A DNA stretch of 59,295 nt from Gracilibacter sp. BRH_c7a (GTDB lineage: Bacteria > Bacillota > Desulfitobacteriia > Desulfitobacteriales > Syntrophobotulaceae). The stretch lies in NCBI GenBank assembly GCA_001516055.1, contig LOEZ01000027.1, positions 1-59,295 on the forward strand, given 5' to 3'. The translations under genes were made by a program, and so were the position numbers. Each line of letters starts with the position of its first letter. Position 1 is the first letter of the stretch. The notes beneath the pieces are model-generated. The model did not search any database. It was not told where the DNA came from and saw only the letters and a list, made by a program, of their open reading frames with translations. Below, piece after piece: positions 25,430-51,071 of this stretch.

Positions 25430-25478
25430 AAAAAACATATTACTGCATATTGCAGTAATATGTTTTTTAATGTATAGT
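25430..25478 (+). promoter_or_regulatory. Large palindrome overlapping the promoter of PadR gene 1
   Basis: An 18-base perfect inverted repeat with a TAT spacer (25430-25468), centred on TACTGCATATTGCAGTA. The right arm contains TTGCAG (25450-25455), and exactly 17 bp later stands TATAGT (25473-25478), giving a sigma-A-like promoter with its -35 box inside the palindrome. The same layout recurs at 28409-28457. It is probably the operator of the PadR proteins. It could also terminate the upstream peptidase transcript. Confidence 0.7.
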
Positions 25479-25547
25479 GTTAATTGAAGATAGGGTTAGA
25501 TTAAAATTCTAATTCATAGAGTATTATAAGAATATTAGGAGGAAAAA

Positions 25548-25913
25548 TTGAAGAAAACTAAAAAATATTCTCCCAGACATGCACCTTCTTTTATTCTGCT
25601 TTTTCTCTCCAGGGGCTCGAATTATGGAGGAGCTATACTGAAAATGATGGAAGAAGAAATCCCTTGCTTTTTAGGTGATAGTGCTATGGTGTATAGAACA
25701 CTTCAGGATCTCGAAGAAGAAGGACTGGTTGTATCTCAATGGGAGATGCCGGATACTGGACGTCCAACCAAAAATTATAAGATGACCGAACAAGGTTGGC
25801 AGAGTCTATTCGACGCTGAAGAAGACATAAGAAAGAGAACCGATAACCACCTATTCTTCTTAAGCCAATTAGAGAAAGTTAAAAAAACAAAGACCGATAA
25901 TTCAAACTCATAA
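25548..25913 (+). CDS. PadR-family transcriptional regulator 1
   Basis: 121 residues with the PadR winged-helix pattern: ILLFLSRGSNYGGAILKMM, MVYRTLQDLEEEGLVVSQWE, then GRPTKNYKMTEQG. It begins with TTG at 25548, six bases after AGGAGG. It heads a two-gene unit with the TIM-barrel protein at 25974. About two thirds of its residues match the second PadR protein at 28508-28855. Because both promoters carry the same palindrome, the two probably recognise the same or closely related operators. PadR proteins are usually repressors released by a small ligand. Confidence 0.9.
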   Translation: MKKTKKYSPRHAPSFILLFLSRGSNYGGAILKMMEEEIPCFLGDSAMVYRTLQDLEEEGLVVSQWEMPDTGRPTKNYKMTEQGWQSLFDAEEDIRKRTDNHLFFLSQLEKVKKTKTDNSNS

Positions 25914-25973
25914 TACCTATTTACTGGTAGTTATTACAATTAAATATATACAATACATAAAGGAGGAATTCTT

Positions 25974-26891
25974 ATGCAAGGTTCAATGTACGAGTATATG
26001 AAGATAGGGATTGTCCATTTTAAAGCTTTCCCTGAATGTGTCAATGGTGTAGGCCCTTTTGAAAAAACAGTAAGCAAACTTTGTGAAGATGATTTCTTCA
26101 CCGCTATCGAGATGGGTACAGTTAAAGATGTCCAGCAACGCCAAGAAGTGAAAAAACTCCTTGACCAGTCTGGTATGGAAGTAGTCTATGCTACTCAGCC
26201 TGTAATCTTTCCTAACAAGCTTAACCTGAATCATCCAGACAAAGGTGAAAGAAACAAAGCAATTAAAGCTGTATTCAACTGCCTGAAAGAAGCCTATGAC
26301 ATCGGTGCTACCGCAGTCAGAATCCCGGCAGGTAAAGATCCTGGACCGGAGAAAAGAGAAGAAGGTAAGAAACTTCTAATTGATTCTTTCTCGCAAATTT
26401 TGGAGAGAGCAAAAGAGTTTGGCAATCCTCTTATTACCTTGAAAATTTTTGATAGATCTATTGACAAAGAATCTATAATCGGCCCTGCTCCTGATGCTTT
26501 AGATATAGCTGAAGCCCTTTCTCCATCCTATGATAGATTCGGTTTATTGACAGATCTTTCTCATTTCCCTCTGCTGGGAGAAGAGATAGAATATACTTTA
26601 ACTACATTGCAGAAATATCTAAAAGCCTTCCAGATTGGCAACTGTGTTATGAAAGATCGACTTAATCCGATGTATGGAGATCTGCAACCCAGATTCGGAG
26701 TGCCTGAAGGGGAAGTAGATATGATGATGGTCAGCAAATATTTTAGGACTTTAGCGGACCTGAAACTTATCGGTAGAGATACCAGACCTGTCATGAGTGC
26801 CGAAGTTCGCCCATTATTGGCCGGAGAAACTTCGGAGATTGTTATTGCCAATACTAAACGCGTATATAAAGAAGCTTGGGCATTAGCTTAA
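25974..26891 (+). CDS. Xylose-isomerase-like TIM-barrel protein (sugar phosphate isomerase/epimerase family)
   Basis: 305 residues with the AP2Ec/xylose-isomerase-like barrel pattern: EMGTVKDVQQRQEVKKLL, ATAVRIPAGKDPGPEKREEG, LLTDLSHFPLLGE and FQIGNCVMKD. Acidic and His residues at strand ends (DLSH, the final SAEVRP) are suitable for a divalent-metal site. Such proteins isomerise or epimerise sugars and related hydroxy-ketones. It lies 60 bp behind PadR 1 with its own AAGGAGG. Neighbouring aminotransferase, alcohol dehydrogenase and MFS genes suggest a small catabolic route. The exact reaction is unknown. Confidence 0.82.
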   Translation: MQGSMYEYMKIGIVHFKAFPECVNGVGPFEKTVSKLCEDDFFTAIEMGTVKDVQQRQEVKKLLDQSGMEVVYATQPVIFPNKLNLNHPDKGERNKAIKAVFNCLKEAYDIGATAVRIPAGKDPGPEKREEGKKLLIDSFSQILERAKEFGNPLITLKIFDRSIDKESIIGPAPDALDIAEALSPSYDRFGLLTDLSHFPLLGEEIEYTLTTLQKYLKAFQIGNCVMKDRLNPMYGDLQPRFGVPEGEVDMMMVSKYFRTLADLKLIGRDTRPVMSAEVRPLLAGETSEIVIANTKRVYKEAWALA

Positions 26892-26916
26892 ACACTAAAA
26901 AAGAAAAGAGTAATAT

Positions 26917-26953
26917 AAGACTGTCGGGCATTTACGGGCTCGACAGTCTTTTT
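26917..26953 (+). terminator. Terminator after the TIM-barrel gene
   Basis: AAGACTGTCG pairs with CGACAGTCTT and runs into TTT. The loop contains GGGC. Confidence 0.8.
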
Positions 26954-27029
26954 GCACTTTAAATTATTCTATAAGTTAGTATTGTTCAATTGATTTAGAT
27001 ATTACTCAAAATGGCAGATAGATAAATTT

Positions 27030-27045
27030 GACCAACTTAGTTGGT
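27030..27045. repeat. Short palindrome shared with 31368-31384
   Basis: GACCAACTTAGTTGGT lies at the 3' end of the aminotransferase gene. The identical 16-mer forms the tip of the hairpin after the alcohol dehydrogenase. Confidence 0.5.
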
Positions 27046-27085
27046 TTATTGTGCAATAGCCCATTGTATAAAGATTAAGCTTCGC

Positions 27086-28261
27086 TTACTTGAAATTCTC
27101 AGCTAATTTCTCGAAAGCGGGAATTGAATTAATAACTGTCTCCATAGGTACGCAGTAAGAGATTCTAAAATACCCTGGGCAGCCAAAGCCGCTACCGGGA
27201 ACAAGCAGCAAATTATAATTCAATGCTGATTTTACAAATTCTACATCATCTTTAATTAAAGCTTTGGGAAAAAGATAAAAAGCACCTTGAGGTTTGACAC
27301 ATTCGAATCCTATTCGAGTAAGGTTGTCATAGAGATAATCTCTTTTGGCTTTATAATCTTCAATATCAACTTTAGCTTCCAGAGCATCACCCACTACTTT
27401 CTGGAATAACCCGGGAGCATTGACGAAACCCAGGGTACGGTTACAAAAGCTTAAGGCGCTAATGAGCAATTCCACATCTTTGATTTTACTGCTTACAGCT
27501 ATATAACCTATCCTCGCTCCGGCAAGCCCTAAAGACTTGCTGAAAGAGTTAATTATTATGGTGTTTTCAAAGAGGGAGAGTATGCTAGGAACTTGGACAC
27601 CATCATAAACGATTTCCGCATAGGGTTGGTCGGAGATGATATAGATGGTTGTGCCAAACTCTTTTTCCTTGTTGGTTATGACTTCTTTTATCATTTTTAA
27701 GCTTTCTTCACTATAAATAACACCAGTAGGATTATTAGGGTTATTAATAATTAAAGCTTTTGTATTTTGAGAAATAAGTTTTTCTAAGGTTTCCAGATCA
27801 GGCTCAAAAGTAGAAGTGTCGGGAGATGCGGGGATAGTCTTACCTCCGTGATTATCTACATAGAAATTGTACTCCATGAAGTAGGGCGCAAAAACAATCA
27901 CCTCTTCACCGGGGTTGAGTATAGACTTAAGAACAACATTCAACCCTCCAGCAGCACCAACAGTCATAACTACGTTCTCTGCAGAAAGTTGCACACCGCT
28001 TTCCTTTTGCAAAGCTTGGGCTATCTTTTCTCTTACTTCTGAATATCCAGCATTATTCATATAACGGTAAAGACCTTTTTGATCAATATGTTTTCTCAAA
28101 GAATTCAGTACTTCTTCTGGAGGTTCAGCATAAGGGTTACCCAAGCTGAAGTCGTATACATTATCAGCACCATGTATGGCAGCTAATTTTGCACCTTCTT
28201 CAAACATTGCTCTTATCCAGGAAGATCTTTGTAAATTGTTCATTATTTTTTCGGAAATCAT
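27086..28261 (-). CDS. Class I/II pyridoxal-phosphate aminotransferase
   Basis: 391 residues, full length for fold-type I aminotransferases. Visible landmarks are VGAAGGLNVVL (cofactor phosphate loop), NNPNNPTGVIY, a DQPYAEIVYD segment, the Schiff-base lysine in NSFSKSLGLAGARIGY and the C-terminal carboxylate-binding Arg in YFRISYC. It transfers an amino group between an amino acid and a keto acid. It is divergent from PadR 2, and the palindrome at 28409-28447 lies between them, so both may be controlled together. The amino-acid specificity cannot be inferred. Confidence 0.92.
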   Translation of the reverse strand: MISEKIMNNLQRSSWIRAMFEEGAKLAAIHGADNVYDFSLGNPYAEPPEEVLNSLRKHIDQKGLYRYMNNAGYSEVREKIAQALQKESGVQLSAENVVMTVGAAGGLNVVLKSILNPGEEVIVFAPYFMEYNFYVDNHGGKTIPASPDTSTFEPDLETLEKLISQNTKALIINNPNNPTGVIYSEESLKMIKEVITNKEKEFGTTIYIISDQPYAEIVYDGVQVPSILSLFENTIIINSFSKSLGLAGARIGYIAVSSKIKDVELLISALSFCNRTLGFVNAPGLFQKVVGDALEAKVDIEDYKAKRDYLYDNLTRIGFECVKPQGAFYLFPKALIKDDVEFVKSALNYNLLLVPGSGFGCPGYFRISYCVPMETVINSIPAFEKLAENFK

Positions 28262-28408
28262 TCTAGGTACTCCTTTTTATTATACTTTCAACTTATTTTA
28301 TCTGTATTTTAACTCATTTATTACAGAGAAGGAAGTATGGTCTGAATTATACTGGAAAAAAGTTAATCAACATAATTATTTTATAATAACTTTTCATAAA
28401 TATTATGT

Positions 28409-28457
28409 AAAAAGCACTATACTGCATATTGCAGTATAGTGCTTTTTAAGTTATAGT
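28409..28457 (+). promoter_or_regulatory. Large palindrome overlapping the promoter of PadR gene 2
   Basis: An 18-base perfect inverted repeat with a TAT spacer (28409-28447), sharing the core TACTGCATATTGCAGTA with the element at 25430. TTGCAG (28429-28434) and TATAGT (28452-28457) are 17 bp apart. It lies between two divergent gene starts, where no transcript ends, so an operator is a better reading than a terminator. Confidence 0.75.
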
Positions 28458-28507: not shown

Positions 28508-28855
28508 ATGAGAAAGAATAAATATTCTCCTCGCCATGCGCCCTCATTTATACTTCTGTTTCTTGCTAGAAGGCCCAATTACGGTGGGGCATTATTAAAA
28601 ATGATGGAGGAAGAGATCCCTTGTTTTTTAGGCGATAGCTCAATGATATACAGAACACTTCAGGAACTTGAAGAAGAGGGAGCGATAACATCTAGGTGGG
28701 AAATGCCAGATACCGGAAGGCCGATTAAATACTATTATTTGACAGATCAAGGTTGGAAGCTATTGTTGGAATCAGAAGATGATATGAGAAAGAGAATAGA
28801 CAATCATTTATTCTTCCTTGATGAATTAGAGAAGGCTAAGAATAGGAAAAAATGA
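28508..28855 (+). CDS. PadR-family transcriptional regulator 2
   Basis: 115 residues and closely similar to PadR 1: ILLFLARRPNYGGALLKMM, MIYRTLQELEEEGAITSRWE and GRPIKYYYLTDQG. The ATG follows GGGAGGG. It is the first gene of a likely PadR-MFS-alcohol dehydrogenase unit. The C-terminal helix (about residues 90-115) is the usual dimerisation element. It is probably autoregulated through the palindrome covering its promoter. Confidence 0.9.
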   Translation: MRKNKYSPRHAPSFILLFLARRPNYGGALLKMMEEEIPCFLGDSSMIYRTLQELEEEGAITSRWEMPDTGRPIKYYYLTDQGWKLLLESEDDMRKRIDNHLFFLDELEKAKNRKK

Positions 28856-28928: not shown

Positions 28929-30122
28929 GTGAGCGTAGATGAACAAAACACAACACATGTTCAAACTGAAAAAAAATCAGGCGATCCCCAAAAAGCTGCA
29001 ACACTAATCACAGCTCATGTCGCTAATGACATTTACCCGCATTTATACCCCGGGCTATTACCTATTATCCTTATGCCTCAGCTTGGATTCAGTATAGCTG
29101 CCGCAGGCTTGATAAGCACAGTTATTGCTCTTACAACTCAATTGATGCAGCCTGTGCTTGGCCTTTGGGCAGATCGCTTAGGGGGAAGAGCTTTCGTCGT
29201 AGGTGGGTTACTGGTGGGTAGTATAATTGTGCCACTTACCTTAGGATGGGCACCCACTTATCTCTTATTATTACTTGGCCTCCTCCTGGGAGGTATTGGT
29301 AATGCGGCTTTTCATCCGCATGCTGCATCCTTAATGAGCGAAATGACCGGTAAATATAAAGGATCCGGCATGAGTTTCTTTATGTTAGGAGGTAACTTTG
29401 GACGCCTATTAGCCCCGATTCTTGCCAGTTCAGCTCTTTATCTGGGAGGTAGACAAGGTCTATGGATCTTAGCTGTACCCGGTCTTGTTATGGCTGTAGT
29501 CATGTTCTTTAGTATGAATCCACCTCCCGCACCTAAACATAGGGAAGGGAAAATCTTCACCATTGAGTTCTTTAAATCTATCAAACAGAGGGGAGGGTTA
29601 ACACTCCTGACGATTGTAGGACTTCGCTTTATGACGGTGATGTCGGTGGTTACTTTAGTCCCAATCATGTGGGAGCAAGCGGGGATTGAATATGGGATAT
29701 ATAACCTTCTCTTGACAGTTGTTTTTGCAGCTGGGATGGTGGGAAACTTGATTGGTGGAACGCTTTCTGATTTTATGGGACGTAAACCGATAATTATTAT
29801 ATCCGCTATTCTTTCAGCAGTAGCACTTATTCTCTTTGTCAATTCCAGCAGCGTTGTAATAGGATTCGTCTTTATTGCATTGTTAGGAGCTTCTCTGTAT
29901 TCTTCAGATCCGGTAATTATGGTGTTCAGTCATCAACTCTTCCCTGAAAATAAAGGGATGGCTTCAGGTATAACAGTTGGTTTGGGTGGTATGGTCGGTT
30001 CCTTAGGGGTTGGTCTAACAGGTTTCATTTCAGATATCTATTCTCCGGCGATAGGCTTATATGTCGCTGCCGCGGCCATGATAATGGTTATCCCTTTTGT
30101 GTATAAACTTATGAACGATTAA
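28929..30122 (+). CDS. MFS exporter (fosmidomycin-resistance-like)
   Basis: 397 residues, about 12 hydrophobic segments. The N-terminal ANDIYPHLYPGLLPII, the GLWADRLGGR loop, GIGNAAFHPHAASLMSEM and GTLSDFMGRKPIII place it in the FSR-like branch of the MFS, which mostly exports drugs or metabolites. It begins with GTG, 73 bp after PadR 2. The PadR neighbour fits a ligand-inducible efflux system, but the alcohol dehydrogenase downstream leaves a catabolic transport role open. Confidence 0.88.
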   Translation: MSVDEQNTTHVQTEKKSGDPQKAATLITAHVANDIYPHLYPGLLPIILMPQLGFSIAAAGLISTVIALTTQLMQPVLGLWADRLGGRAFVVGGLLVGSIIVPLTLGWAPTYLLLLLGLLLGGIGNAAFHPHAASLMSEMTGKYKGSGMSFFMLGGNFGRLLAPILASSALYLGGRQGLWILAVPGLVMAVVMFFSMNPPPAPKHREGKIFTIEFFKSIKQRGGLTLLTIVGLRFMTVMSVVTLVPIMWEQAGIEYGIYNLLLTVVFAAGMVGNLIGGTLSDFMGRKPIIIISAILSAVALILFVNSSSVVIGFVFIALLGASLYSSDPVIMVFSHQLFPENKGMASGITVGLGGMVGSLGVGLTGFISDIYSPAIGLYVAAAAMIMVIPFVYKLMND

Positions 30123-30249: not shown

Positions 30250-31323
30250 ATGAACAACCAAATACCTGAAAAGATGAAAGCCTTGGTACTTTTTGGAAAA
30301 GATGATTTTCGTGTAGTCAATGACAAGCCTGTTCCCAAACCAGGCAGTGGAGAAGTACTTGTCAAGGTAGAAGCATGCGGCATCTGTGGTACAGATGTCA
30401 AAATTATCACTAAGGGAATGCCTAAGATGCCACCTTATGGTGAGTTTACCCAAGGGCATGAATGGGCAGGTACTGTTGTCGCCCTAGGCGAAACAGTAGA
30501 TGAATTCCAAATCGGAGACAGAGTTGCCATTGAGGCGCATAAAGGCTGTGGCCGTTGTCAGAACTGTATCGAAGGATTGTATACTAGCTGCCTGAACTAT
30601 GCCCAAAAAGGACAGATTGCATCCGGTATGACCCGGGACGGTGGTTTTGCAGAATATGCCGTTCACCACATCAATGCTATCTATAAGATTCCTGATAATG
30701 TAGATTCTGTACAAGCCACTTATGTAACTACTCTAGGCTGTGCTCTCTGGGCACTTGATACGAGTGGTGGCTATATAGCCGGAGACACAGTTCTTATCAC
30801 CGGACCTGGCCCAATAGGTTTATCGATGGTTCAAGCATGTGCTTCAGTTGGAGCCGAGAAAATTATTCTCGTAGGAACCAAGAATGACAGATTAGAAATT
30901 GGCAAGAGCGTTGGAGCTACTCATGTTATTAACGTAAATGAAGTAGAGGATCCTCTGGCGGCAGTAATGGAGATTACAGGTGGACGCGGTTGTGAAAGAA
31001 CCTATGAATGCGCGGGAAATGATTCTTCCTTTGATCTCTGTCTGAAATCCACTATGCGTGGACATACTATGACATGTGTATCTTTCTATAAGCAACCGGT
31101 TACAGCTGCGCTGGACTATGCAGTGCTTAATGCAATTAGTATTAAAACTGTACGCGGAGAGGGCGGAAACAACTGTAAGAGAGCTCTTTCTCTTATGAGT
31201 CAAGGTAAGATAGATACCAGCCGGATTATAACCCATACGTTCCCTCTTGATGAGTTTGCCAAAGGGTATGATTATTTCATCAACCGAAAAGATGGTGCAA
31301 TGAAAGTTGTAATTACACCATAG
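30250..31323 (+). CDS. Zinc-dependent medium-chain alcohol dehydrogenase (sorbitol/threonine dehydrogenase type)
   Basis: 357 residues. The catalytic zinc site is CGICGTD and GHEWAG, the structural zinc cysteines are in CGRCQNCIEGLYTSC, and the nucleotide-binding segment is VLITGPGPIGLSMVQA. The family oxidises secondary alcohols of polyols or amino acids with NAD(P). With an epimerase-like barrel and an aminotransferase in the same cluster, a polyol, amino alcohol or hydroxy-amino-acid substrate is plausible but unproven. AGGAGGG precedes the ATG. Confidence 0.92.
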   Translation: MNNQIPEKMKALVLFGKDDFRVVNDKPVPKPGSGEVLVKVEACGICGTDVKIITKGMPKMPPYGEFTQGHEWAGTVVALGETVDEFQIGDRVAIEAHKGCGRCQNCIEGLYTSCLNYAQKGQIASGMTRDGGFAEYAVHHINAIYKIPDNVDSVQATYVTTLGCALWALDTSGGYIAGDTVLITGPGPIGLSMVQACASVGAEKIILVGTKNDRLEIGKSVGATHVINVNEVEDPLAAVMEITGGRGCERTYECAGNDSSFDLCLKSTMRGHTMTCVSFYKQPVTAALDYAVLNAISIKTVRGEGGNNCKRALSLMSQGKIDTSRIITHTFPLDEFAKGYDYFINRKDGAMKVVITP

Positions 31324-31353: not shown

Positions 31354-31398
31354 GGGGTTGCTGCACTGACCAACTTAGTTGGTCAGTGCAGCAGCCCC
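31354..31398 (+). terminator. Long hairpin after the alcohol dehydrogenase
   Basis: Two 21-base arms with a single G-U wobble close on a TTA loop. The inner part contains GACCAACTTAGTTGGTC (31368-31384). The 3' side (CCCCTTCTTAATG) is only weakly T-rich. Confidence 0.65.
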
Positions 31399-41549: not shown

Positions 41550-41712
41550 TTATAGCTTCGTTAGGTGAGGCTCCTATATGGAGATATGCTGCTGCCCAGA
41601 AACATCGAGAGATGCCAACGGGTTAACAAGAAAGATCGGCTTAAGGTCTTATTAATGTAGCTGGTTCTGTCCTATGCCATATAGTGCTTAAACTCAACGA
41701 GTGGAGGGAAGA
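41550..41712 (+). ncRNA. M-box (ykoK leader) magnesium riboswitch
   Basis: The conserved M-box landmarks are present in order: GCTTCGTTAGGTGAGGCTCC, TATGGAGATATGCTGCTGCC, GATGCCAACGGGTTAACA, the TTAATGTAGCTGG segment and CCTATGCCATATAGTGCTTA. The RNA folds around Mg2+ and shuts off downstream expression when magnesium is plentiful. The next gene is mgtE, the usual target. Confidence 0.93.
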
Positions 41713-43259: not shown

Positions 43260-43268
43260 GATTAAATT

Positions 43269-43324
43269 AAAGTTAGGGACGGTTCTTCACTTGATTTTTC
43301 AAGTGAAGAACCGTCCCTAACTTT
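43269..43324. repeat. Perfect 26-bp inverted repeat between converging mgtE and rubrerythrin genes
   Basis: Two 26-base arms without mismatch close on a TTTT loop. The arm contains GGGACGGTTCTTC, a sequence I associate with dispersed palindromic units in Clostridia. It may be a bidirectional terminator, although only a short T run is present. Confidence 0.7.
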
Positions 43325-43339
43325 ACTATTTATTCGAAC

Positions 43340-50680: not shown

Positions 50681-50768
50681 CGCTTACAACATAGCTTAAG
50701 GATCTATAAATCATTGACGAATAGAAGCCTAACACAAGTTGACCTTCCCCAAACCCAGGAGTTTTCAT

Positions 50769-50930
50769 ACAGGCAGGTCTACCGACTTAGCTTCTTCCTA
50801 CTTTGACACCTTCCCGCTTGGAACACATAATCCTTTAAAGCAGTGGTTCAACGTCATTTCGTCAGCTTTACGGTTGCTGGGACAGTTCCGGGATTCGCAC
50901 CCGCTTCCCTATTAAGCAGTTTGCACCTGT
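50769..50930 (-). ncRNA. Cobalamin riboswitch
   Basis: Read on the minus strand it shows the B12-element landmarks in order: ACAGGTGC, TTAATAGGGAAGCGGGTGCG, AATCCCGGAACTGTCCC, the B12 box AGCAACCGTAAAGCTGA and the closing GGTGTCAAAGTAGGAAGA, then GTCGGTAGACCTGCCTGT pairing with the start. It should repress the whole minus-strand B12 operon (DUF71 to btuD) when adenosylcobalamin or a related corrinoid is abundant. Confidence 0.93.
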
Positions 50931-51071
50931 ATATAGTTATTAATTTAAGCTACTGTTTCAAATATATTAAGAATATTGCCTCTTCTTAAATTATAATCCT
51001 ATTCTATCATAAAAACAAACATCCTTGTTAATTTATTTCTTCAAATTTTTACATTAAAAATATATCAAGAC

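Follow-up and report, generated by a model that had tools for sequence, protein, structure and literature searches.

What is the role of two long inverted repeats that each precede a gene for a PadR regulator and that differ from one another in their outer arms while both stay self-complementary? We examined this question in a stretch of 59,295 nucleotides from Gracilibacter sp. BRH_c7a (contig LOEZ01000027.1), here called the window. A sequence check bore out the 39-bp perfect inverted repeats reported in an earlier note, together with their coordinates, their shared core and the difference between the outer arms of the two copies. Palindrome 1 (25430–25468, without assigned strand; AAAAAACATATTACTGCA-TAT-TGCAGTAATATGTTTTTT) has 18-nt arms around a TAT centre, and palindrome 2 (28409–28447, likewise without strand; AAAAAGCACTATACTGCA-TAT-TGCAGTATAGTGCTTTTT) becomes 28408–28448 with 19-nt arms if one further pair is counted. 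The description as perfect thus holds for the arms and not in the sense of gapless, since the TAT centre sets the two arms of each repeat 3 nt apart. TACTGCATATTGCAGTA is common to both, and the core TACTGC-ATATT-GCAGTA, matching the pattern TACTGY-N5-RCAGTA, is identical in the two (25441–25457 and 28420–28436, neither stranded). Twenty dinucleotide shuffles of the whole window produced perfect arms of at most 13 nt, against the 18–19 nt observed, which places these arms far beyond chance.

Both repeats stand at the head of a short run of forward-strand genes. About 80 bp beyond the 3' end of the first lies padR1 (25548–25913, 121 aa), followed by a gene for a xylose isomerase-like TIM-barrel protein (25974–26891). 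The second ends about 60 bp ahead of padR2 (28508–28855, 115 aa), after which come genes for an MFS transporter (28929–30122) and a zinc-binding alcohol/threonine dehydrogenase-like protein (30250–31323); a strong terminator-like palindrome with 17-nt perfect arms (31354–31398) sits just 3' of the latter. Divergent from padR2, on the reverse strand, is a gene for a PLP-dependent aminotransferase (27086–28261; NF005305). The two PadR proteins are 71% identical and both contain the PadR winged-helix domain PF03551 (48.6 and 49.4 bits, cut-off 27). NCBIfam PhaQ and PDB Pex are among their nearest profile matches, a likeness at the level of the protein profile alone (34 bits against the PhaQ profile, whose cut-off is 139). 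The viral contigs gave no PadR relative, and a phage origin is thus unsupported.

On the strength of sequence comparison, we consider it highly probable that the two palindromes are operators through which PadR controls a small regulon, its own gene included. The genome search that the earlier note had called for returned just two exact copies of TACTGCANNNTGCAGTA in 4.1 Mb, namely the palindrome pair, both before a padR gene; its remaining matches carry two mismatches each, and the two contexts inspected look unrelated. The half-site GCAGTATAGTG occurs 21 times in the forward sense across the genome as against 20 times for its reversed control, and the contexts inspected among its other matches yielded no regulon candidates. 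With one mismatch allowed, TACTGYNNNNNRCAGTA has 43 genomic sites versus 21 for the control, few of which were inspected singly. Its sole additional exact match (C16:80007, L100) has no covering open frame of at least 120 codons and no extended palindrome. An informal look at the upstream regions of the nine other PadR genes of this genome revealed different motifs.

Comparison with relatives gives the operator reading its phylogenetic footprint. Of the 25 genomes of the family, 7 encode an ortholog of this PadR, that of the window among them, and the core directly precedes padR in four of the six others (G010; G009, L011; G001, L012; G002, L013); in the remaining two (G008 and G014) the site before padR has drifted away from the exact core, with its layout still recognisable. 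Exact sites are found in six of the seven family genomes with this PadR versus one of the 18 without it (hypergeometric P = 2.6 × 10−4). Across the order and phylum, we drew 36 PadR relatives by protein similarity alone, and 23 of their upstream regions contain an exact TACTGY-N5-RCAGTA, where about 0.0025 would be expected by chance; the script total of 26/39 included three trans sites found by the pattern itself, which we dropped. Thus, the inverted repeat is conserved as an element of the gene's own upstream region. ATGT-N8-10-ACAT, the motif of the LmrR/PadR class, is not the one conserved among these orthologs. Some order relatives display tandem operator units in 17-bp phase (L089 and L096). 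In one genome lacking this PadR (G007), the same core (TACTGTATATTGCAGTA; L071, 1501–1517) lies between TTGACA and TACAAT before an apparent prophage gene, and is perhaps a similar site of another regulator.

When 73 genomes of the order were scanned for the pattern, 14 sites emerged, 11 of which adjoin genes of this regulon. Three of the sites are in trans, with no padR next to them. First, the site in G010 (C37:35503, L076) immediately precedes the MFS gene, in the very place that padR2 occupies in the window, and the aminotransferase gene is again divergent. Second, the one in G008 (C2:56321, L072) precedes TIM-barrel and dehydrogenase genes. Third, that in G009 (C83:5710, L073) precedes an MFS gene, with its core within a perfect TTGACA-18-TATAAT promoter; a site inside the promoter is the classic position for a repressor. 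These sites, together with the distribution among family genomes, indicate that the element tracks the regulator and its targets and not just the padR gene, and they make the strongest case that the operator acts in trans. In G010, a genome that is 84% complete, the MFS gene follows the operator with no padR in between, unlike in the window, and the single PadR detected there is 91% identical to PadR1; padR2 was thus gained or lost within the genus.

The earlier note had also proposed that the two PadR proteins cross-regulate the TIM-barrel, MFS/dehydrogenase and divergent aminotransferase genes. For the TIM-barrel and MFS/dehydrogenase units the G010 and G008 sites without padR argue in favour of this, and the aminotransferase part gains no such backing: both species of the genus have the gene in divergent orientation, at unequal distances from the palindrome (about 85 versus 148 bp), and it is an unproven candidate member with its conserved divergent position as the sole pointer.

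Both palindromes overlap a likely padR promoter, as judged from its sequence. The candidate −35 box TTGCAG lies inside the right arm (25450–25455 for padR1 and 28429–28434 for padR2, forward strand), and the candidate −10 box TATAGT follows it (25473–25478 and 28452–28457, also forward) at exactly the 17-bp spacing claimed earlier. At padR1, spacing and −10 box are kept in relatives, and TATAGT or TATATT is found 17 bp past TTGCAG in seven of the eight family palindromes. TTGCAG matches the sigma-70 −35 consensus at only three of six bases, so that the predicted promoter is weak or tentative, and it is absent from the list produced by our promoter scan. A second TTGCAG recurs as a direct repeat 17 bp downstream, on the −10 box, in G009, G001 and G008b, with a near copy in G014. 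Many of the wider PadR relatives have an operator, or half-sites of it, that coincides with a good promoter, for example TTGACA-18-TATACT in L036, L044 and L049, and in several distant orthologs the core or its half-sites overlap TTGACA-17/18-TATACT. Among distant orthologs, both the spacing and the placement with respect to the promoter are variable. This variable geometry, the poor −35 match and the decayed padR sites of G008 and G014 are the points that weigh against the operator reading.

From these patterns we infer a scheme of binding, repression, ligand response and cross-talk. A PadR dimer would bind the inverted half-sites TACTGC...GCAGTA spanning the −35 region and, once bound, would block RNA polymerase at the padR1–TIM-barrel and padR2–MFS–dehydrogenase units, for which palindromes 1 and 2, respectively, are the proposed operators. 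A ligand, probably the substrate of the MFS transporter, would relieve repression. Given the shared core and the 71% identity of the two proteins, PadR1 and PadR2 would probably each bind both palindromes.

Comparable arrangements are known from other PadR proteins. In Clostridioides difficile, EMSA showed cdPadR1 (CDR20291_0991) to bind TACT(N11-12)AGTA repeats in the promoter of its own gene; there are two such repeats there, one of them over the −35/−10 region (PMC5050560). The window resembles this system in pairing a PadR protein with a TACT/AGTA inverted repeat in its own promoter, but the core here (TACTGY-N5-RCAGTA, i.e., TACT-N9-AGTA) has extra specific positions, its genomic sites are fewer, and its arms are lengthened into a 39-bp perfect inverted repeat. 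The operators of LmrR and PadR-s1/s2 follow ATGT-N8-10-ACAT (PMC3506622). With these, our case shares wHTH PadR regulators and an inverted repeat at their own and transporter gene promoters, whereas the half-site letters differ, ATGT/ACAT not being the core here. This exact operator is undescribed in the open-access papers that we found.

In what would otherwise be ordinary bacterial gene regulation, the unusual feature of these sites, and the one of wider interest, is that from one species to the next their outer arms differ by paired substitutions. Among the eight family sites, which comprise only seven distinct sequences, the core is invariant but for one C/T position, and four outer pairs vary. 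Watson–Crick pairing is kept in 31 of the 32 variable cells, a value that none of 100,000 shuffles equalled; two-sided compensatory changes occur at all four pairs, with none in slid controls, and in pairwise comparisons 66 changed positions were altered in both arms and 15 in a single arm. Taken together, these figures indicate that arm complementarity has been maintained. The earlier note had credited this to selection on the pairing itself; the covariation is real, but selection is one of several options for its cause, since template switching during replication yields the same pattern. The matched arms have three possible causes: protein contacts that are themselves symmetric, a hairpin formed in RNA or as a cruciform, and template switching.

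Template switching between operator arms during replication, by which one arm is rewritten from its partner with no selection on pairing, is a serious if tentative candidate for the origin of the outer arms. An operator core would in this way grow into a perfect palindrome and remain one; the proposal bears on the arms alone and leaves the operator reading of the core intact. The process is described as creating and maintaining perfect stems (Monttinen and Loytynoja, PMC8794818), and a second study reports that it mutates quasipalindromes in E. coli (PMC7202029). The predominance of two-arm over one-arm changes points the same way, as do the long perfect arms of different outer sequence at PadR operators of other lineages (16, 19, 20 and 24 nt in L049, L083, L087 and L091), a recurrence that a mutational process spreading from the core would yield. 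Against it, the set comprises just those seven distinct sequences, and the arms retain both the A5-6/T5-6 tract and a fixed TG, so that sequence selection acts on some of the arm. Most simply, the palindrome would be a long symmetric site kept perfect by template switching, symmetric protein contacts or both; an RNA role is not needed to explain the matched outer arms. The longest arms of the set, those upstream of the L091 padR, are perfect over 24 nt and flank a 12-nt centre over several PadR half-sites.

The earlier note had envisaged a dual element, a DNA operator that also forms an RNA hairpin ending readthrough transcripts, with the pairing under selection. Its operator half agrees with the footprinting and the trans sites of sister genomes, and the terminator half fares poorly, so that we regard the combination as unlikely. 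The shape is that of an intrinsic terminator, a stem-loop with a T-tract: either strand reads A5-6, stem and T5-6, the repeats fold strongly as RNA (−18 to −29 kcal/mol, z −5.1 to −6.8), and the compensated pairs described above would suit a stem. Copy 25430 lies 17 bp past a co-directional M23 peptidase gene, and a co-directional gene just upstream is otherwise seen only at G010a and G001. The hairpin, however, is upstream of the transcript start under the predicted promoter, and five of the eight family sites (the 28409 copy, G010b, G009, G002 and G008b) are behind divergent genes or genes hundreds of bases away, and not at the end of a transcription unit, with arms and A/T tracts conserved equally well. 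G014 and G031 already possess separate terminator-like repeats upstream, and the G009 operator before the MFS gene is without long arms. Neither palindrome matched any family in an Rfam search. A terminator role is conceivable at the 25430 copy and misfits the sites behind divergent or distant genes. That such operators double as nucleic-acid hairpins at all, as DNA cruciforms or RNA terminators whose arm complementarity is selected beyond protein contacts, is doubtful; if true, one site would have two regulatory modes.

Plain intrinsic terminators or dispersed repeats with no link to PadR would account for the hairpin with its T-tract, and one pattern match elsewhere (L068) does resemble a terminator after an unrelated gene, but this very improbable reading is contradicted by the genome-wide distribution, with just two exact copies, both before padR, and by conservation ahead of padR, MFS and TIM-barrel genes across genera. 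The L068 match itself (1501–1517, in G039) has the core inside an apparent intrinsic terminator after an NrfD-like gene, a natural combination of core and terminator that is probably due to chance.

The PadR operator reading defines a testable operator, TACTGY-N5-RCAGTA, and a regulon for a group of PadR proteins that spans several anaerobic Firmicutes genera. The family sites are also a clean natural collection for comparing explanations of covarying palindromes, since constraint on a protein site, pairing in RNA and repair by template switching each predict something different, and they carry a lesson for scans, namely that a covarying inverted repeat alone is insufficient proof of RNA structure.

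Other elements of the window were recorded alongside. A perfect inverted repeat with 27-nt arms (TAAAGTTAGGGACGGTTCTTCACTTGA) occupies 43268–43325, and sequences close to its arm recur at six further genomic locations; it thus looks like a dispersed repeat that forms a palindrome here. Two riboswitch matches are above the Rfam cut-off: an M-box magnesium riboswitch at 41550–41712 on the forward strand and a cobalamin riboswitch at 50755–50945 on the reverse strand.
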